Origin: Streptomyces sp. R41
GTDB lineage: Bacteria; Actinomycetota; Actinomycetes; Streptomycetales; Streptomycetaceae
Direction: 5' to 3'
NCBI RefSeq assembly: GCF_041053055.1
Contig: NZ_CP163443.1
Coordinates: 4,943,001-5,007,000 of the forward strand
DNA: 64,000 nucleotides
The number at the start of each line of letters is the position of its first letter. Within the stretch, counting starts at the first letter, position 1. The translations under genes were made by a program, and so were the position numbers. Shown piece by piece: positions 33,950-41,812 of the stretch. Below the pieces are notes generated by a model that saw nothing but the letters and a program-made list of their open reading frames with translations, was not told the DNA's origin and did not search any database.

Positions 33950-34831
33950 TCAGATGCCTGCCGACCGGCGCCAATAGGGCACCGCCGCAAGGTTCCACAG
34001 GTCATCGAAGTGCTTGGTCCACATGGTGACCGCCTCCTCGGCGGACGCCGAGCCCTGCCTGGACCAGACGTTGAGATCGGTGCTGTAGCCCTTGGGATCG
34101 TAGAACTCTTGGTCCTGCAGTCGCATCCGGGTGGCGACGTTGTAAAGCCCATGCAGCACCTGTCCCCTGTTGAAGATGCAGATCTTGTCGCGGGGGATGC
34201 CGGGGTAGGAGCGATACTCGCAGACAACGGTCACCCGGCCGTTGTCGGTTATCTGCGCCGCCAGGCCCGACAGCACGTCGTCATAGTCCCTGCACCTCAA
34301 CTCCTGGCGCTTGCGGAAGTCGGGGTCGTCCACGGGTTCGCCGTTACCGCCGATCCTGGAGGGGACGGTCATCGGCTGGCCGAAGTCGGGCACAAGCATC
34401 CGCACGGAGACCCGCTTGGTCGGACCGGGGTCGTCGAGCAAACCCTCCAGCCGGTGGTAGAGCTCGTTGTAGAGGGTCTCTCCGGTGTAGCCGAGAAAGC
34501 TGATCTCGACCTTCCGAGCTCCGAACGCCTCGCTGACGTAGCTGCCCAGCTGACGCGAGTTCACCAGTGCGCGCGTCGGTGCCGTGATCGACCGGGCGAG
34601 ATCCTTCACCGCGTCGTACAGCACATAGCCCACCAGGCTGAGCAGCGCACCACCGAGATACGCCTTGCCTTCCAGAGCGTCTCCGACCGGCTTGACGAAC
34701 TGCGCCGTCAGCCCGGTGAGAAAGATCCCGAGAAGCAGGACGCGCGTCGCCACAGGTTCGAAGCGGTCTTGGTATCTCTTCAAACGCGCACCGACACCGG
34801 CGTCGGCCTGGCCGCTCCCGACCCTGGACAT
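33950..34831 (-). CDS. Membrane-anchored protein with the GntR-associated C-terminal domain
   Basis: About 293 aa with two hydrophobic segments (about 28-48 and 60-80) and a cytosolic C-terminal domain. That domain resembles the C-terminal half of the three GntR proteins nearby: RVSVRMLVPDFGQPMTVP here against RISMRMLLPSEDLAVPYP in the first GntR, then DKICIFNRGQVLHGLYNV against TFKLYLLNGTDALQALYEP, and a closing W..H(F)DDLWNLAA against AWFNSVWSLLA. No HTH is present. ATG 34831 is preferred because GAGGGGGG is six bases upstream (an ATG at 34837 is possible). It follows the tandem kinase gene by about 40 bases on the same strand. Confidence 0.75.
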   Translation of the reverse strand: MSRVGSGQADAGVGARLKRYQDRFEPVATRVLLLGIFLTGLTAQFVKPVGDALEGKAYLGGALLSLVGYVLYDAVKDLARSITAPTRALVNSRQLGSYVSEAFGARKVEISFLGYTGETLYNELYHRLEGLLDDPGPTKRVSVRMLVPDFGQPMTVPSRIGGNGEPVDDPDFRKRQELRCRDYDDVLSGLAAQITDNGRVTVVCEYRSYPGIPRDKICIFNRGQVLHGLYNVATRMRLQDQEFYDPKGYSTDLNVWSRQGSASAEEAVTMWTKHFDDLWNLAAVPYWRRSAGI

Positions 34832-34871
34832 GCGCATCCCCCCTCACCGGGCGGAGCCATCCAGCGAGGCC

Positions 34872-37118
34872 TCACATGCCTGCTGAGAATCCGACCCGCC
34901 GTGTGTTGCCATGGTCGCCGTGCGGCAATGCGCGGGCAAGATAGGGGTTCGCCGTCGAGCGGACGGGAAGGCCGAGTGCCGCTCTGGCCGCCTCCAGAGT
35001 CATCGCGTACGAGTCCACGGCCCTGCGCACGTTGGGGGCGTCGAGGCTGGCGCCTGTGACCAGGCGGTCGAGGTCGACATATGAGGAACGGACGATCTCG
35101 AGCCACCGGTAGGCGAGCCAGTCGTGCTTCCAGTTCTTGGTGTGCGTATTGGGCAGGCTGGCCGCCCAACGGCGGAACATCCGATCGCGGATCTCGGGCC
35201 GTGTCGGAGTGAGATGCATGTGCCGGACCAGGTCGTACAGAGGGTCGCCGACCATCGCCAGCTCCCAGTCGATGATGGTCAGCGCGAGGGAGTCGTCGCG
35301 GCGCACGAGATTCCACGGGTTCAGGTCCCCGTGCAGCAGCGTGGGCTTGCGCGAGGTCACCCGGTGCCGGAACAGGATTTCCTTCAGACGACGCGCGCCG
35401 GGCAGGCCCAGCACTCGGGCCAGCTGCTGCGACTCCTTGGGCAACCCCTCCACCAGCAGTACCAGTTGGTTGCACAACCACTCGTAGAAGTCCCTGTTCC
35501 CGGACCAGTCCGGCGCTGTCGGATCCAGCGAGGCGTAGTCCACCAGGGTCAGAGCGCAGAGCTGGTCCACCAGCTTGTCCGCCTCGTGGGGCAGCAGCCC
35601 GTTCACCGGGTGGTTCGGCGGCTGAACCCCGTCTTGCGGGCCGACATACGTGTGGATGGCAAAGGGGTCCTTGGTGTGACTCTCGCCCAGCGCGAGCACC
35701 CTGGGTGCCGTCACCGCGACCCCGGACTCCTCAATGGCCCTCAGGACGGCGTGCTCGCTCAGATAGCCACGTTCGCGGCGGCAGACCGATGCCACCTTGC
35801 GCCGCACCACCACCGGAAAAGCGATGTCCGGCACGCGCACCACCGAGTTGAGGTGGGCGGTTCCCTTGAACACCCGACCGGCAGGCGCTGCCCCCTCGGC
35901 GATCAAGGCGTGGCGCACGGCCCAGCGGGGAAAGTCCGGGTGTTCCGGAAGCCGTTCATCGGGCTTCCAGGCCAGGGTGGTGACCGACCTGCTGACGCCG
36001 GCCCGCCGATCGTGCCGGGATGCCTGCCACCGGATGAGGACGCGCTCGACCTCGGCCTCGTCGGGCACATGCGCGAGCCTGAGCGGCTCGGCCGCGGCCT
36101 TGAGGGCGCTGCTCACCGAGGCGGTTGCCTGGTCCAGGCTCTTCTGGTCGAGCGAGTCCTCCAGGGATCTCGCCGCACGCATCACATCCGGATAAACGGA
36201 CTGGGCGCGCTCGAAGGCCACGTAGTGGCGCAGATCCCGTGCCAGGCCGTTCGCCGCCGCCGGTCTGGTGTCCTGGATGGCATCCGCCCACGCGTCGACC
36301 ACCTCGCCCCATTGGAAGTCCGGATACCGCATCCGGACCAGGTGGGTGGCGAGGTCGTGCAGCGGGTCGCCGTATGTCGCGAGCTCCCAGTCCACACAGA
36401 TCAGGGGCGGCTCTCCACGGTAGGTGACGATCACGTTGTCCCGGTGAAGGTCGGCGTGGAGGAGGCTGTACGGACGACGGGCCATCGGGGGGACCCGCGC
36501 GGCCAACTGGGTCAGGGCGTCCTCGGGGATTCCCAACGCGGCAAACAGCCCACCGAAGTCAGTCCAATTGGGCCGGCGGATTTGACGGTCGGCGAGATGC
36601 GCCAACGTCTGCAGAAAGGCCTGGCTGTCCTTGTCATTGGGCGACCAGCCGTCGGGCAGCGGAGGTAACGCTTCCCTGCGCACCTGCGACATCTGTGCGA
36701 GCAGCCCGGCCAGCGCGCTGATCAGCAGTCCGTCGACCGGCTTGCCGTTGGGGCAGACCGTGGAGAGCGGAACGCCCTCCACGTAGCTGTGCACGGCCGA
36801 GTCTCGGCGCCGGGCGAGACATTCCGGCACATGCGGCAGGACGCCCCGGATGGCGGCGAGGATCTGAGCCTCTTGCTCCCAGGTTCTGATGACCACCGGA
36901 AGGGCTTCGGGCCTGCGGATCCGCACCGTCACATTGGTGCCGGGCTCACGCCCCACGCGCCGCGCCATCGCCTCGGTCAGGGGCAGCACGTAGTTCCGGT
37001 TGTGATGACCGCCGCTCATCACTCCGAGCTGTTTCGCCTGTCCCACGAACTCGTCGTAGGCACCATCGGCGGCACATCGTTCCCAGAAGTCGCGCTTGGG
37101 AACCGGAGGTGCTCCCAC
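34872..37118 (-). CDS. Tandem aminoglycoside-phosphotransferase-like kinase
   Basis: A 748-aa protein made of two APH/choline-kinase-like domains. The first has the catalytic loop HADLHRDN (residues 221-228) and metal-binding VDWELATYGDP; the second has HGDLNPWN (596-603) and IDWELAMVGDP. Both Brenner motifs look intact, so both may be active. Substrate unknown; small-molecule or lipid head-group phosphorylation is the family norm. GTG 37118 is chosen for CAGGAG six bases upstream. A TTA codon at 36666-36668 (Leu151) would make expression depend on the bldA tRNA. It lies between GntR-A and the membrane-anchored protein, all on the minus strand. Confidence 0.82.
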   Translation of the reverse strand: MGAPPVPKRDFWERCAADGAYDEFVGQAKQLGVMSGGHHNRNYVLPLTEAMARRVGREPGTNVTVRIRRPEALPVVIRTWEQEAQILAAIRGVLPHVPECLARRRDSAVHSYVEGVPLSTVCPNGKPVDGLLISALAGLLAQMSQVRREALPPLPDGWSPNDKDSQAFLQTLAHLADRQIRRPNWTDFGGLFAALGIPEDALTQLAARVPPMARRPYSLLHADLHRDNVIVTYRGEPPLICVDWELATYGDPLHDLATHLVRMRYPDFQWGEVVDAWADAIQDTRPAAANGLARDLRHYVAFERAQSVYPDVMRAARSLEDSLDQKSLDQATASVSSALKAAAEPLRLAHVPDEAEVERVLIRWQASRHDRRAGVSRSVTTLAWKPDERLPEHPDFPRWAVRHALIAEGAAPAGRVFKGTAHLNSVVRVPDIAFPVVVRRKVASVCRRERGYLSEHAVLRAIEESGVAVTAPRVLALGESHTKDPFAIHTYVGPQDGVQPPNHPVNGLLPHEADKLVDQLCALTLVDYASLDPTAPDWSGNRDFYEWLCNQLVLLVEGLPKESQQLARVLGLPGARRLKEILFRHRVTSRKPTLLHGDLNPWNLVRRDDSLALTIIDWELAMVGDPLYDLVRHMHLTPTRPEIRDRMFRRWAASLPNTHTKNWKHDWLAYRWLEIVRSSYVDLDRLVTGASLDAPNVRRAVDSYAMTLEAARAALGLPVRSTANPYLARALPHGDHGNTRRVGFSAGM

Positions 37119-37149
37119 GGGCCACTCCTGTAACTGAGGTTGCGGCAAA

Positions 37150-37254: not shown

Positions 37255-38136
37255 TCAGGTCGCGAGCAGACTCCATACGGAGTTGAACCACGCCTGACTA
37301 CTGGCGACGAAAACTGATCCGGTGGAGTCCGGGTCGTCGTCCTTGACGTAGTGCGTGAGGGTGGCGCCGAAGCCCAGTACGTCGACCGCGAGGATCTCGC
37401 TGCCGTCCTCCAGCTCAATCAGGCGTTCGACCGGCTCATAGAGGGCCTGCAGTGCGTCGGTCCCGTTGAGGAGGTACAGCTTGAACGTCGGAGTCAGCTC
37501 CACGTGGCGGATCTCCAGCTCGACGCTGGGCACCAGGTCCTCGAGTTCAAGGGCCCGCAGCACGCGTCGCACGGATGCCGTGTGCCTGCGCGTCAGGCTT
37601 TGGAGACGGTCTCTCAACCGTGGGTCGTCCGGATCGTCCTTGGTGCGCGGATAGGGCACGGCCAGATCCTCGGACGGCAGGAGCATGCGCATGGAGATGC
37701 GCCGAGGGGCGATCTCCCCTGTGCGGATCCGCTCCTCCTGAACCCGGATGTGCATGTCCAGGGACTCGGATGTCAGCGTGTAGACGTCGAGGGTGACTTC
37801 CGGCTGCTCGAAGGCCTGGCGGATGATCGGGCCCAGGGTCACGGCCCAACCCGGCTTCGCGCCACTCGGCGCACGGGTCGGGGCACGCTGCGGTTCCACC
37901 ACACGGGAAACCCGGGACCCGCTGCCCTGGCGGGACATGATCCACCCGCCGTTGGCCAGCTCCCTCAACGCCCGTTGCACCGTGTCCCGGGAGACCCCGA
38001 ACTCCTTCGCCAGCTCGCGCTGGGGCGGTAGAAGGGCTCCCAATGGATAGGTCCCGTCGCTGATCCGGGCGAGCAGCGCGCCGGCGACACGCAGGGACTC
38101 CTTGCCGCCGCCGTCGCCGATCTGCTGTCCGTCCAC
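37255..38136 (-). CDS. GntR-type regulator A with shared effector domain
   Basis: A 293-aa protein: GntR winged helix (about 10-80; LLPPQRELAKEFGVSRDTVQRALRELANGGWI), a linker, and a C-terminal domain (about 95-293) also found in regulators B and C and in the membrane-anchored protein (33950-34831). It is not FCD, UTRA or an aminotransferase domain as far as I can tell. GTG 38136 is six bases after a TACGGT -10-like hexamer, so the message may be leaderless. It is head to head with the membrane miniprotein A gene; two palindromes lie between. It is followed by the tandem kinase on the same strand. Confidence 0.82.
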   Translation of the reverse strand: MDGQQIGDGGGKESLRVAGALLARISDGTYPLGALLPPQRELAKEFGVSRDTVQRALRELANGGWIMSRQGSGSRVSRVVEPQRAPTRAPSGAKPGWAVTLGPIIRQAFEQPEVTLDVYTLTSESLDMHIRVQEERIRTGEIAPRRISMRMLLPSEDLAVPYPRTKDDPDDPRLRDRLQSLTRRHTASVRRVLRALELEDLVPSVELEIRHVELTPTFKLYLLNGTDALQALYEPVERLIELEDGSEILAVDVLGFGATLTHYVKDDDPDSTGSVFVASSQAWFNSVWSLLAT

Positions 38137-38185
38137 ACCCCGACCGTACCTCTGCCACCCGACAAGCAAACCGATTCCGGTCAAG

Positions 38186-38265
38186 TAACCAGTCCAACCG
38201 GTCCGCTGGTTAAGGGATCAACCGGGCAGGGCAGACAACATTCAAGTCAACCAGTCCAATTGGAC
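38186..38265. promoter_or_regulatory. Operator candidates in module A
   Basis: TAACCAG (38186-38192) and CTGGTTA (38206-38212) are a perfect inverted repeat; AACCAGTCCAA occurs again at 38249, where GTCCAATTGGAC (38254-38265) is a perfect 12-bp palindrome. Both lie between the divergent starts of GntR-A and miniprotein A. Confidence 0.65.
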
Positions 38266-38311
38266 GGGGAGTTGATCGCTTCACTGGAAGTTGAAGGGGT
38301 GGGTGGAAAAC

Positions 38312-38494
38312 ATGGCTCAATGGGAAGTGGCTCTGGCGGTCACCGAGTTCATCCTGGCACTGGTGACCCAGGTGAAGTTCGGACTCGTGTGTGCGCTCCT
38401 TCTGCCACTGATCTTCATAGGCATACGTAAGGGCCACTCGTCCCTGGCGGCGGGAGCGGCGGTGGTCTTCATCATCCTGGTGTCTCAGGCCTGA
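38312..38494 (+). CDS. Membrane miniprotein A
   Basis: A 60-aa very hydrophobic protein: three short hydrophobic stretches (about 5-19, 23-38, 43-59) divided by the loops QVKFG and RKGHSS. It aligns with miniproteins B and C over hydrophobic-QxKxG-hydrophobic-IG(I/L)(K/R)-hydrophobic. The ATG at 38312 follows GGGGTGGGTGG. It is divergent from GntR-A, and its last 10 bases overlap the end of the convergent HAD gene. The function is unknown. Confidence 0.7.
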   Translation: MAQWEVALAVTEFILALVTQVKFGLVCALLLPLIFIGIRKGHSSLAAGAAVVFIILVSQA

Positions 38495-39222
38495 CCCCGG
38501 AGCTCCCGCAGGACCGGCTCGAGTGACCCCACGACCGCCTGCGCTCCGGCCTTCCGCAACTGCTTCTCCTTGCTCTCGTTACGCGCGTAGCCAAGAAACG
38601 GAACGCCGGCCCGCTGGGCGGCTTCGAAGTCCGAGGGGGCATCCCCGATCATGAGCGCGGTCGACGGGGCGGCGCCCAGGGCGTTGAGGGCGCGGTTGAG
38701 GCAGTGCGGGTGCGGCTTGAGGTGGTGCAGTTCCTGGGTGCGTCCGTAGATGTTGGGCACGAAGCACTCGGCGAGACCACGGCTCTCCAGGTAACTGGCC
38801 GCGGTGCGGGCCGAGTTGTTGGTCGCGATGGCCAGCCGGGCTCCGACGGCGCTCCAGGTGCGTATCAGGGGATCGGCGAATGCCGTGGGCATGGCCGAGG
38901 GCACTGCCTTGAGTTCCTGCTGGGTGAGCCGCGCCTCGAGCTCGGCCACCAGATCACTGTGCGGGTGGCGCCGGTTGACCGCGTGCAGGACGACCATCGG
39001 GTCCGGGTGGAAACGTTCCTCCTCGGTCAACAGTCCCCGCAGCCCCTGCCGTTCGAGCCACTCCACCAGATCCTTCGCCACATCCTCCGCGGCATGCCCC
39101 GCGAACAACCGGCAGATCGGCCCGTCGAAGTCGAAGAGCACGAAGCGGGCACGGTTGATCACTTCCCGTAGGTTCTCTGTCGCTGTCGCCACCGATTCAG
39201 TCTGCGCCGTATCAGAAGTCAC
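38485..39222 (-). CDS. HAD-family hydrolase
   Basis: A 245-aa HAD phosphatase with motif I FDFDGPICRLF (nucleophile Asp), motif II ATNNSA, motif III Lys in HLKPHPHC and motif IV MIGDAPSDFEAAQRAG; a helical cap lies between I and II, as in phosphoglycolate phosphatase-like enzymes. Substrate unknown. The GTG start at 39222 shares its G with the TAG stop of GntR-B (TAGTG), so it is translated by re-initiation after the regulator. It ends in a convergent overlap with miniprotein A. With the tandem kinase it gives the locus both a phosphotransferase and a phosphatase. Confidence 0.87.
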   Translation of the reverse strand: MTSDTAQTESVATATENLREVINRARFVLFDFDGPICRLFAGHAAEDVAKDLVEWLERQGLRGLLTEEERFHPDPMVVLHAVNRRHPHSDLVAELEARLTQQELKAVPSAMPTAFADPLIRTWSAVGARLAIATNNSARTAASYLESRGLAECFVPNIYGRTQELHHLKPHPHCLNRALNALGAAPSTALMIGDAPSDFEAAQRAGVPFLGYARNESKEKQLRKAGAQAVVGSLEPVLRELRGQA

Positions 39223-40094
39223 TAGGAGAGTGTCAGGTCAGTGGTGATGGTTTCCCAGAGGGCGTCGAACCACTTCTGGGATTCCTCCACAAAGGCGGCG
39301 TCCCGTTGGCCGGCCCGCTTCTCGAAGGAGAAGAGGAGGGACGCCGAGCCGAGGGTGTCGTACATCTCCAGGACTCCGCTGTCCACGGTCTCCTCACGCC
39401 TGGTGATCATGTAGTACGCGATCAGCGCCTCCGACTCGTTGAGCAGGTACAGCTTCACCGGTGGGGTGAACGGCAGCGCGCGGAAGGTCACCCGGACGTC
39501 GATGCCGTGGGAGGAGCGCAGGGACTGGAGGTTGTGGCGCAGGACGTGACCCTGGGCGTTGCGCTGGTCCAGCCAGCGTTTGTGGACGGGGTCGTCCTCT
39601 CCGCGCCCCTCCACCGGGACGGGGAACGCCAGGGTGATGTCCCGGGAGGGCAGCAGAATCCGTACGTCGATCGACTCCGGACGGATCCTGCCCTCGTGGA
39701 TCAGGCGGACAGGCTCCCCGAGGGCCACCATCAATGTCTCCGCGGTGAGGCAGGCGGCGTCCACGCGGACGCGCGGTACGGAGAATGCCTCGGTGAGGCG
39801 AGGCGCCAGCCCCACCATCGTCGGCTGGGGTTCGTCCCGCGCGGCGGGAACGTCGGCGATCCTCGGCGGGCTGCCCTTGCTGACGTTGCTGAGCAGACCG
39901 GCGTCCTGGAGTGCCCGGAGGGCTTGACGGACGGTGCCGCGCTCGACACCGAATTCCTCTGCCAACTCGGCCTGGGTGGGCAGGCGGTCGCCCGCCTTGA
40001 GGTCACCGACGCGGATGCGTTCCCGCAGGATGTCGGCGATCTCCTGGGGCGAGGTCCTTCTGCTGCCGTTCACTGCGACGTTCTCCTGGGTCAC
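39222..40094 (-). CDS. GntR-type regulator B with shared effector domain
   Basis: A 290-aa protein with a GntR winged helix (about 15-80; RLPTQAELAEEFGVERGTVRQALRALQDAGLL) and the same C-terminal domain as regulators A and C. B and C are close relatives (both contain VTFRALPFTPPVKLYLLN). GTG 40094 lies exactly six bases after TAGCGT (minus strand, 40106-40101), the same spacing as in C, which points to a leaderless mRNA; a GTG further in with AGGAG upstream (40073) is the alternative. It is head to head with miniprotein B and coupled to the HAD gene. Confidence 0.83.
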   Translation of the reverse strand: MTQENVAVNGSRRTSPQEIADILRERIRVGDLKAGDRLPTQAELAEEFGVERGTVRQALRALQDAGLLSNVSKGSPPRIADVPAARDEPQPTMVGLAPRLTEAFSVPRVRVDAACLTAETLMVALGEPVRLIHEGRIRPESIDVRILLPSRDITLAFPVPVEGRGEDDPVHKRWLDQRNAQGHVLRHNLQSLRSSHGIDVRVTFRALPFTPPVKLYLLNESEALIAYYMITRREETVDSGVLEMYDTLGSASLLFSFEKRAGQRDAAFVEESQKWFDALWETITTDLTLS

Positions 40095-40100
40095 GACCAA

Positions 40101-40133
40101 ACGCTACAACTCTCGCCCATCTATGGGGAGTTG
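40101..40133 (-). promoter_or_regulatory. Leaderless promoter and palindrome of GntR-B
   Basis: On the minus strand TAGCGT (40106-40101) is a good -10. Upstream of it CAACT-CCCAT / ATGGG-AGTTG (40107-40133) form an inverted repeat. The block from the start codon to about 40150 is conserved in module C (41406-41462), while flanking DNA is not. Confidence 0.6.
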
Positions 40134-40182
40134 CCTGGGAGTTGTTTATGAGTAGTAGCCAAGTGGGGACAACTTAATCAGA

Positions 40183-40208
40183 GTTGGTAACCAACTTGGC
40201 CAAGTTGG
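40183..40208. promoter_or_regulatory. Overlapping palindromes in module B
   Basis: GTTGGTAACCAAC (40183-40195) and CCAACTTGGCCAAGTTGG (40191-40208) are both perfect palindromes and share CCAAC. The first has the GT-N-AC core expected of GntR operators, and its counterpart GTTGGTCACCAAC is found in module C. Confidence 0.7.
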
Positions 40209-40286
40209 CGGAAGTTTTGCCTCCCCTCCCGGCCGGCCTCCCACCGGCCTTCCTTGAAGCAGGACTTGAAAGCAGGAGGAACCACC

Positions 40287-40475
40287 ATGCCCGCCATAGC
40301 CCTCCTCTCCGCCGTCTTCGTCGTCGGCTTCGAGCAGCTCGTCCAGTGGAAGTACGGCCCCATGGGCATCATCGGACTGTTGCTGCTCACCATCGGAATC
40401 AAGGCGAACAGTCCCACCTGCAGCTCCATCGGGGCGCTCATGCTCGCCCTGATGGTCGCGGGTCCTGCGCTGTGA
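40287..40475 (+). CDS. Membrane miniprotein B
   Basis: A 62-aa hydrophobic protein with likely three membrane stretches: AIALLSAVFVVGFEQLV, then after QWKYGP the segment MGIIGLLLLTIGI, then after KANSPTC a third, IGALMLALMVAGPAL. FEQLVQWKYGPMGII is identical to miniprotein C at all but one position. A strong AGGAGGAACCACC precedes ATG 40287. It is divergent from GntR-B, with palindromes between. No known toxin or holin family is recognised. Confidence 0.75.
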   Translation: MPAIALLSAVFVVGFEQLVQWKYGPMGIIGLLLLTIGIKANSPTCSSIGALMLALMVAGPAL

Positions 40476-40502
40476 CCAGCGAAGACTCCCGCCCAGGAGA
40501 CC

Positions 40503-41405
40503 TCAGCTCGTGAACAGCAACTCCGAGCTGATGGTCTCCCACAGCGCGTTGAACCACAGGTGGGACTGCTCCACGAACGTCGTGTCCCGCAGCCCCGCCC
40601 CCTGGGTGAAGGGGAAGAGCATGGACTGCGTGCCCTGGACGTCGTACATCTCCAGGTGCACATCGTCGATCTCCCCCTCGCGCTTGGCGAGGGTGTAGTA
40701 CGCGAAGAGGGCCTCGGCGCCGTTGAGCAGATACAGCTTCACGGGTGGTGTGAAGGGGAGCGCGCGGAAGGTGACGTTCACATCGATGCCGTGCGTGGAC
40801 CGCAGGGCCAGCAGGTTGTGACGCAGCACCTGGGCCTGGGCGTTGCGGTTGGCCAGCCAGTTGCGCTGGAGGCGGCCGTCGGCGGAAGAGTCGACAGGGG
40901 CCGGGAAGGCAAGATCGATGTCACTGCTCGGCAGCAGCAGGCGGACGTCCACCCTGGCCGGTTTTATTCGCCCCGCGTGAATCTGACGGAGGGGCTCACC
41001 GATGGCAAGTGTCAGGGAGATGGACGTCAGACACAGCGCGTCTATCTCCACATGAGGGGCCGCGAAGGCGGCGGCTATCCTCGCGCCGAGTGCCACCGTG
41101 GTGGGCTGCGGCGGGGCTTCGGGGCCGGTCAGAGACCTTTCCGGGTTGTCGGCGACGGTCGCGGGGCTCCCCTTGGACACGTTGACGAGCAGATGCTCCG
41201 ACTGAAGGATGCGCAGCGCCTGGCGCACGGCGCCGCGCTCGACGCCGAACTCGTCCGCCAGCTTGGCCTGCGTGGGCATGCGCTGGCCGGCCCGCAGCTG
41301 ACCGGACCTGATCCGGCTGCGCAGCTCGTCGGCCACCTCACGGTGTGACCTCGGTGGCCGTGGTGACCTGTTCCGCCCATTGACGGCGGCGTGTTCCGGT
41401 TCCAC
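40503..41405 (-). CDS. GntR-type regulator C with shared effector domain
   Basis: A 300-aa protein, the closest relative of regulator B: GntR winged helix (about 20-85; RMPTQAKLADEFGVERGAVRQALRILQSEHLL) and the C-terminal domain with RVDVRLLLPSSDIDLAFPAPVD, FRALPFTPPVKLYLLNGAEALFAYY and a final LWFNALWETISSEL. GTG 41405 is six bases after TAGTGT (41417-41412), as in B, so the message is probably leaderless. It is head to head with miniprotein C and its stop is 28 bases after the miniprotein B stop, in convergent orientation. Confidence 0.83.
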   Translation of the reverse strand: MEPEHAAVNGRNRSPRPPRSHREVADELRSRIRSGQLRAGQRMPTQAKLADEFGVERGAVRQALRILQSEHLLVNVSKGSPATVADNPERSLTGPEAPPQPTTVALGARIAAAFAAPHVEIDALCLTSISLTLAIGEPLRQIHAGRIKPARVDVRLLLPSSDIDLAFPAPVDSSADGRLQRNWLANRNAQAQVLRHNLLALRSTHGIDVNVTFRALPFTPPVKLYLLNGAEALFAYYTLAKREGEIDDVHLEMYDVQGTQSMLFPFTQGAGLRDTTFVEQSHLWFNALWETISSELLFTS

Positions 41406-41506
41406 GACCAAACACTACAACTTCCCGCCATCTTTGGGCAGTTACCTGATAGGTGGTTATGAGTCGACCCAACGCGGAGATAAGTACCTTTGAGTTGGTC
41501 ACCAAC
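41406..41506. promoter_or_regulatory. Control region of module C
   Basis: It holds the minus-strand -10 TAGTGT (41417-41412), the block CAACTTCCCGCCATCTTTGG shared with module B in slightly changed form, GGTTATGAGT (also in B), and the palindrome GTTGGTCACCAAC (41494-41506). Confidence 0.6.
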
Positions 41507-41626
41507 TTGAGCAACATGGTCAAGCTTCCCGAGGGTTGGCCGCCAGAGTCGCACCTGCCAGCCAGGTGGACCAGGTGGACGGTCCTCAGCGGGGGTCCGC
41601 CTCCCCGTCCCGAAGGAGGGACCGTC

Positions 41627-41812
41627 ATGCCGCTCATCGCCCTCGCCGTCGCCGCCCTCGCCATCGGATTCGAACAGCTCATCCAGTGGAAGTACGGGCC
41701 GATGGGCATCATCGCGTTCGTCGCGCTGTCCATCGGCCTCAAGGCCAAGAACTCCGTGATCAGCGGCATCGGAGCTGTGATTCTCGTGATGCTGCTCGCC
41801 CAGTCCGGCTGA
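41627..41812 (+). CDS. Membrane miniprotein C
   Basis: A 61-aa hydrophobic protein, sister of miniprotein B: first span IALAVAALAIGFEQLI, the loop QWKYGP, second span MGIIAFVALSIGL, then KAKNS and a third span ISGIGAVILVMLLAQ. GAAGGAGGG is eight bases before ATG 41627. It is divergent from GntR-C. A tandemly repeated CAGTCCGGCTGACCGGGC (41801-41818 and about 41831-41848) covers its stop codon. The function is unknown. Confidence 0.75.
   Translation: MPLIALAVAALAIGFEQLIQWKYGPMGIIAFVALSIGLKAKNSVISGIGAVILVMLLAQSG

Follow-up and report, generated by a model that had tools for sequence, protein, structure and literature searches.

The closest described system is the dev locus of Streptomyces coelicolor, as presented by Clark & Hoskisson 2011 (PubMed Central (PMC) article PMC3187754). 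There, devA (SCO4190) is co-transcribed with devB, which encodes a putative phosphatase, and the divergent gene devC encodes a small protein of ~50 amino acids (aa). DevA represses its own transcription (devA-devB). The duplicate devE (SCO4188) encodes a 303-aa protein that is 57.6% identical to DevA, and both S. sviceus and S. coelicolor have retained a devC-like gene beside devE. Without devA, the mutant is viable and has short, mis-septate aerial hyphae; those of the devE mutant are long and unseptate. PMC2000904 lists the product of SCO4187, one locus number below devE, under "putative membrane protein", with a mass of 6268 Da and an isoelectric point (pI) of 9.5; its transcript was lower in a bldA mutant on arrays. 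Here, we compare with this system three regulator/miniprotein gene pairs (A, B and C) found in a 64-kb stretch of the 10.46-Mb chromosome of Streptomyces sp. R41, hereafter the window.

Each pair consists of a GntR regulator gene on the minus strand, head to head with a plus-strand gene whose hydrophobic product has 60-62 aa, an arrangement already noticed in a preliminary description of this DNA and confirmed here (Table 1). The same description knew of no published system of this form; the dev locus of PMC3187754 is such a system. Judged from the order of the genes, their sizes and the identity between the paralogues, regulator B corresponds to devA, regulator C to devE and the HAD gene that follows regulator B to devB. 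Miniprotein B corresponds to devC by position and miniprotein C is the SCO4187-like gene. Like the published locus, R41 has a HAD gene after devA and a small gene divergent from devA. DevE has its counterpart in regulator C (302 aa, 60% identical to B), and SCO4187 resembles miniprotein C (6253 Da, pI 9.52). The order devE, devA-devB with a divergent small gene is found at B and C and not at A. Regulator identities are 60% for B-C, 38% for A-B and 32% for A-C, and those of the miniproteins 52%, 24% and 22%, respectively. Hence B and C are close sisters and, judged from these sequences, pair A is an extra, diverged copy.

The firmest new fact is a near-private palindrome of these regulators. 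Conservation is seen in the intergenic regions of both B and C, and AGTTGGTNACCAACT occurs without mismatch only twice in the 10.46 Mb, once between the B genes and once between the C genes, in each case 81 bp ahead of the regulator start; AGTTGGNNNCCAACT likewise occurs twice without mismatch, both times in this locus. We searched a sample of 121 Streptomyces genomes with the effector domain of regulator C and with miniprotein C. The pattern AGTTGGYNRCCAACT was present in 46 of the 49 genomes with strong B/C-type matches (84 sites), in 10 of the 28 with only weaker effector-domain matches, and at 10 sites in the 44 genomes that have no such match; a reversed-pattern control gave 23 sites in the 121 genomes, 4 of these in the 44 domain-less ones. 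Outside R41 itself, 66 of the 75 sites listed (108 in all) lie within 3.5 kb of a regulator, the regulator positions behind this count being part of the 150 effector-domain matches listed (from 75 of the 77 matching genomes) that also serve for the linkage counts given below.

Finer counts come from a wider set of loci with 79 named ones picked by likeness to regulator B, an uneven sample on which the counts of miniprotein absence, selection, palindromes, distances and neighbours depend; identical proteins were removed for the miniprotein-absence counts and kept in the palindrome, distance and neighbour counts. The loose form GTTGG-N1to4-CCAAC is carried by 98 of 112 B loci with a miniprotein gene, 5 of 10 B loci without one and all 58 C loci with one (control: 21 of 700 random pieces). 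The palindrome begins 81 bp before the regulator start (interquartile range 81-81; 92/112 B and 57/58 C loci carrying it), distances being taken only at loci where it was found. The 12 invariant bases of the site alignment are a product of site selection and are not counted as evidence. Of the 37 A-type intergenic regions next to a miniprotein gene, 27 have a GTCCAA/TTGGAC-type site, and CCAGTCCAATTGGAC occurs at one place in the genome. As for a wider regulon, the mismatched pattern was barely above its reversed control (25 vs 16 sites with up to two mismatches, 12 vs 12 with up to one). Four genomes (G026, G091, G046 and G049) have two palindrome copies, 32 or 347 bp apart, near miniprotein genes. 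No operator sequence is given in the abstract, introduction or Results of PMC3187754, and one may already be published in Hoskisson 2006.

The linkage of regulators and miniproteins is the second main observation. The effector domain of C was matched in 77 of the 121 genomes and miniprotein C in 64. The check proposed in the preliminary description, whether the two co-occur head to head more often than by chance, is borne out: 84 of the 89 miniprotein matches, from these 64 genomes, lie within 1.5 kb of a family regulator, and 80 of the 89 within 603 bp of the effector-domain start of the facing regulator. Four of the 84 are 772-1443 bp away, and some face the regulator of a neighbour, their own one being lost. 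A miniprotein match was found for 83 of the 150 regulator matches listed. Among distinct proteins, a facing miniprotein is present for 107 of the 115 regulators of B type, for 56 of the 108 of C type and for 36 of the 77 of A type. On the C-type regulator tree, miniprotein presence changes 11 times, versus 29-43 times in 200 shuffles, and 15 losses result if the miniprotein is taken as ancestral. Furthermore, some miniproteins have no regulator of their own: an intact one in G084, a genome with no effector-domain match, and the second miniproteins of G102 and G091. Pairing is thus real but loose: regulators and miniproteins are linked in Streptomyces and are not obligate pairs. The view that they were duplicated as units and hence work as pairs is retained for the joint duplication of B and C and abandoned for obligate pairing, since regulator-less miniproteins and mini-less regulators both occur.

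In a class-wide draw of 246 genomes from 103 genera, the effector domain was found in 28 genomes of five genera and the miniprotein in 16 genomes of one genus, the window's own; family regulators of the four other genera had no miniprotein match in this draw. Elsewhere, the regulator often occurs with a HAD gene. Because such regulator/HAD loci extend beyond the range of the miniprotein, regulator and HAD gene look older than the miniprotein. In the three loci tested (L284, L106 and L276), DevA-like GntR genes lie near FtsK/SpoIIIE-family genes, as on conjugative elements, and the miniprotein is absent; L276 and L284 also have a HAD gene beside the DevA-like gene. Some single-copy devA-like genes may be mobile.

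We think it probable, though well short of certain, that this is a devA/devB/devC/devE locus with a third pair, in which each regulator is an autorepressor with joint control over its own operon and a membrane effector of sporulation. With its winged helix, each regulator would bind the palindrome between the divergent genes, AGTTGGYNRCCAACT at B and C and GTCCAATTGGAC at A, and hold down both its own operon (devB, often with an APH kinase gene downstream) and the facing miniprotein gene. The C-terminal domain would be PLD-like and non-catalytic and would sense a ligand that is probably phosphorylated and may be made or removed by the kinase/phosphatase pair. On release of the regulator, the miniprotein would be made and enter the membrane, where it may be the output in aerial-hypha growth or septation. 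Kinase and phosphatase genes beside a sensor suggest a phosphorylated ligand: among 133 loci that contain regulator B or C (duplicates included, locus lengths unequal), 127 have a HAD gene, 119 an APH-type gene and 28 a membrane-anchored effector domain. The APH-type gene of the window encodes one protein with two APH-type stretches, and APH-type genes adjoin regulators in many Streptomyces loci.

The Pfam GntR domain (PF00392) is present in regulators A, B and C (E 8e-19, 2e-17 and 2e-16), and no other domain type was found in them by Pfam; the DevA-type C-terminal domain is common to all three. The FadR, HutC and MocR subfamilies were considered and discarded: FCD, UTRA and aminotransferase C-terminal domains gave no Pfam match at E 1. 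The effector domain belongs to no Pfam family (the best value, E 0.047, came from one member out of 24). With the AlphaFold model of regulator C (mean predicted local distance difference test (pLDDT) score 84.7), Foldseek ranked TrmBL2 first, followed by GntR proteins; MITD1, SauUSI and F13 came lower. We take TrmBL2, MITD1, SauUSI and F13 to contain PLD-like domains. The catalytic motif of the PLD-like superfamily is HxKxxxxD. In the effector-domain alignment of 141 rows, 139 have the lysine and 139 have N at K+5, whereas not a single row has His at K-2; these columns may represent the place of the catalytic motif. We tentatively read this, on weak fold scores, as a PLD-like domain that would have lost catalysis. 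The domain is also carried, behind a hydrophobic hairpin, by the 295-aa protein at 33950-34837 (E 1e-8 against A, 4e-11 against B), which the effector-domain profile finds as well, and this fusion is also present in other genomes. Among the 120 of its 345 relatives that are listed, most are annotated "hypothetical protein" and some "ATP/GTP-binding protein". In L281:1293-2366, the effector domain is preceded by an N-terminus without Pfam match (E 0.001), perhaps another sensor architecture.

Table 1. Features of the dev-like locus of Streptomyces sp. R41 (positions in the 64-kb window)
Feature	Position	Strand	Remarks
Regulator C, devE-like	40503..41411	-	302 aa; GntR domain and effector domain (perhaps PLD-like)
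Miniprotein C, SCO4187-like	41627..41812	+	61 aa; 6253 Da; pI 9.52
Predicted operator palindrome AGTTGGTCACCAACT	41493..41507		between the C genes
Regulator B, devA-like	39222..40100	-	292 aa; stop overlaps start of HAD gene
Miniprotein B, devC-like by position	40287..40475	+	62 aa
Predicted operator palindrome AGTTGGTAACCAACT	40182..40196		between the B genes
18-bp palindrome	40191-40208		overlaps predicted operator of B
Second inverted repeat CAACT...AGTTG	40107..40133		close to start of regulator B
HAD phosphatase, devB-like	38485..39222	-	245 aa; Pfam PF13419, PF00702
Regulator A, diverged third paralogue	37255..38184	-	309 aa
Miniprotein A	38312..38494	+	60 aa; end overlaps HAD gene by 10 bases
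A-type palindrome GTCCAATTGGAC	38254..38265		
Tandem APH-type phosphotransferase	34872..37148	-	758 aa; PF01636, two stretches
Hydrophobic hairpin with effector domain common to the regulators	33950..34837	-	295 aa

Several points weigh against the autorepressor reading or parts of it. The match to the S. coelicolor genes relies on published descriptions; the named loci include no record under that species name. A lower SCO4187 transcript in a bldA mutant (PMC2000904) is by itself uninformative about DevE. The preliminary description had regarded regulators that normally lack a partner as fatal to its proposal; this proves to depend on the type, 52 of 108 C-type (devE-type) and 41 of 77 A-type regulators being without a miniprotein, versus only 8 of 115 B-type (distinct proteins). 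Moreover, of the 55 C-type loci that lack a miniprotein, 51 keep the loose palindrome, and its spacing, constant to the regulator, is variable to the miniprotein start (29-450 bp at B, 36-159 bp at C). Since the spacing is fixed to the regulator and the palindrome outlasts the miniprotein, the palindrome indicates autoregulation more surely than control of the miniprotein. As for the fold, the PLD-type Foldseek matches have E 7e-5 to 2e-3 with TM scores of only about 0.2-0.3, the TrmBL2 alignment also includes the winged helix of regulator C, and the VIA-align rows span the winged helix only. Searches of PDB chains by sequence gave no match for the effector domain (best E 0.24), and Pfam PLDc_2 matched 1 of 24 members at E 0.08.

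The linkage and the hairpin fusion also bear on another role for the miniprotein, that of a membrane tether or signal relay: it would bind the effector domain at the membrane and pull the regulator off the DNA, as a one-component sensor split in two. Fusion of the effector domain to a membrane hairpin, in this locus and in other genomes, fits a membrane-near job for this domain, and the miniproteins are linked to the regulators. However, no similarity between miniproteins and the hairpin was detected among the few sequences compared, regulator C and its palindrome persist at loci devoid of miniprotein, with the 11 changes seen on the C-type tree, and the effector domain exists in four other genera with no miniprotein match. 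We regard such a tether as rather unlikely.

A small hydrophobic protein facing a regulator, in units duplicated side by side, also recalls a toxin-antitoxin-like unit in which the miniprotein would be a pore former silenced by the regulator. Yet miniproteins are retained where the regulator is missing (G084, and the second copies of G102 and G091), about half of the C-type regulators have outlived theirs, and S. coelicolor survives a devA null mutation according to PMC3187754, which makes this idea quite improbable. Toxin-antitoxin and defence readings were also tried with PADLOC, whose matches were weak and nearly all to the winged helix.

Mechanical open reading frame calling yields longer miniprotein frames (67, 73 and 119 aa); the short starts were chosen because of ribosome sites and alignment. 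The strong ribosome site attributed earlier to each miniprotein gene exists for B and C (AGGAGG, GAAGGAGGGA), whereas that of A is weak (GGGTGGAAAAC). Median pairwise ratios of nonsynonymous to synonymous divergence (dN/dS; Nei-Gojobori, pairs with dS 0.1-1.5), values that cover miniproteins B and C and are rough in a 70% GC genome, are 0.39 for B and 0.51 for C. They are not near 1, the value that the preliminary description had held to speak against its proposal, and reveal purifying selection. Divergence of miniprotein B at codon positions 1, 2 and 3 is 0.22, 0.08 and 0.32 (60 rows); in miniprotein C, the codon-pattern signal is weaker because positions 1 and 3 diverge alike (0.206 vs 0.204). 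That the frames are merely conserved leader or regulatory DNA, as the highly conserved adjoining intergenic region could suggest, is hardly credible given the gene-like codon pattern of miniprotein B, dN/dS below 1, 315 protein relatives and a SCO4187 transcript detected on arrays (PMC2000904).

The miniproteins are probably membrane-bound: grand averages of hydropathicity are 1.52, 1.32 and 1.38 for A, B and C, and the predicted model of miniprotein C has three helices (residues 2-23, 25-39 and 43-59; mean pLDDT 86). No convincing known family or fold was found for them: Pfam reached E 0.0027 at best (TMEM125, one member out of 24), PHROGs E 0.0031 (again one of 24) and a PDB fold search E 2.6. 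The word "membrane" is absent from the text of PMC3187754, and no other study of Streptomyces devC was found in the open-licence PMC literature, among the matches listed. A bolder extension of the autorepressor reading, which we hold to be speculative and rather unlikely, is that the DevA family forms a membrane-state sensing module: dead PLD-like domains, joined in one cluster both to DNA-binding proteins and to a membrane hairpin, would read a phospholipid headgroup or a related phosphometabolite whose level would be set by the kinase and phosphatase genes, and the three-helix DevC-like miniproteins would be the regulators' chief, nearly private targets, through which sporulation septation would be tuned. 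The locus matters since loss of devA or devE clearly impairs sporulation, while the abstract, introduction and Results of PMC3187754 name neither a ligand nor any direct target other than devA-devB. The predicted operator, the candidate effector fold and the miniprotein family render testable the ligand of DevA/DevE, devC as the output and the membrane role of DevC.

Two known systems offer partial parallels. TrmB/TrmBL2-type regulators have a PLD-like effector domain. They resemble the R41 regulators in combining a winged helix with a second domain, and TrmBL2 is the top Foldseek match; they differ in that the R41 winged helix is of GntR type and that the effector domain has no TrmB Pfam match at E 1. 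SmeA, by which SffA is targeted to sporulation septa in Streptomyces (PMC4125116), is by description a lead as to how a small membrane protein may work in sporulation; smeA shares an operon with its partner, whereas the R41 miniprotein genes are divergent from the regulator. Closer at hand, DevF/DevG of S. sviceus, further devA-like paralogues, are 29-33% identical to DevA/DevE according to PMC3187754, and regulator A has a comparable degree of identity to C and B (32-38%). In comparison with the S. coelicolor dev locus as described there, R41 has three additions: the third regulator/miniprotein pair, the tandem APH phosphotransferase and the effector domain in a membrane-anchored copy. The developmental locus as such is thus known, and R41 adds an extra pair and several features absent from the abstract, introduction and Results of PMC3187754.

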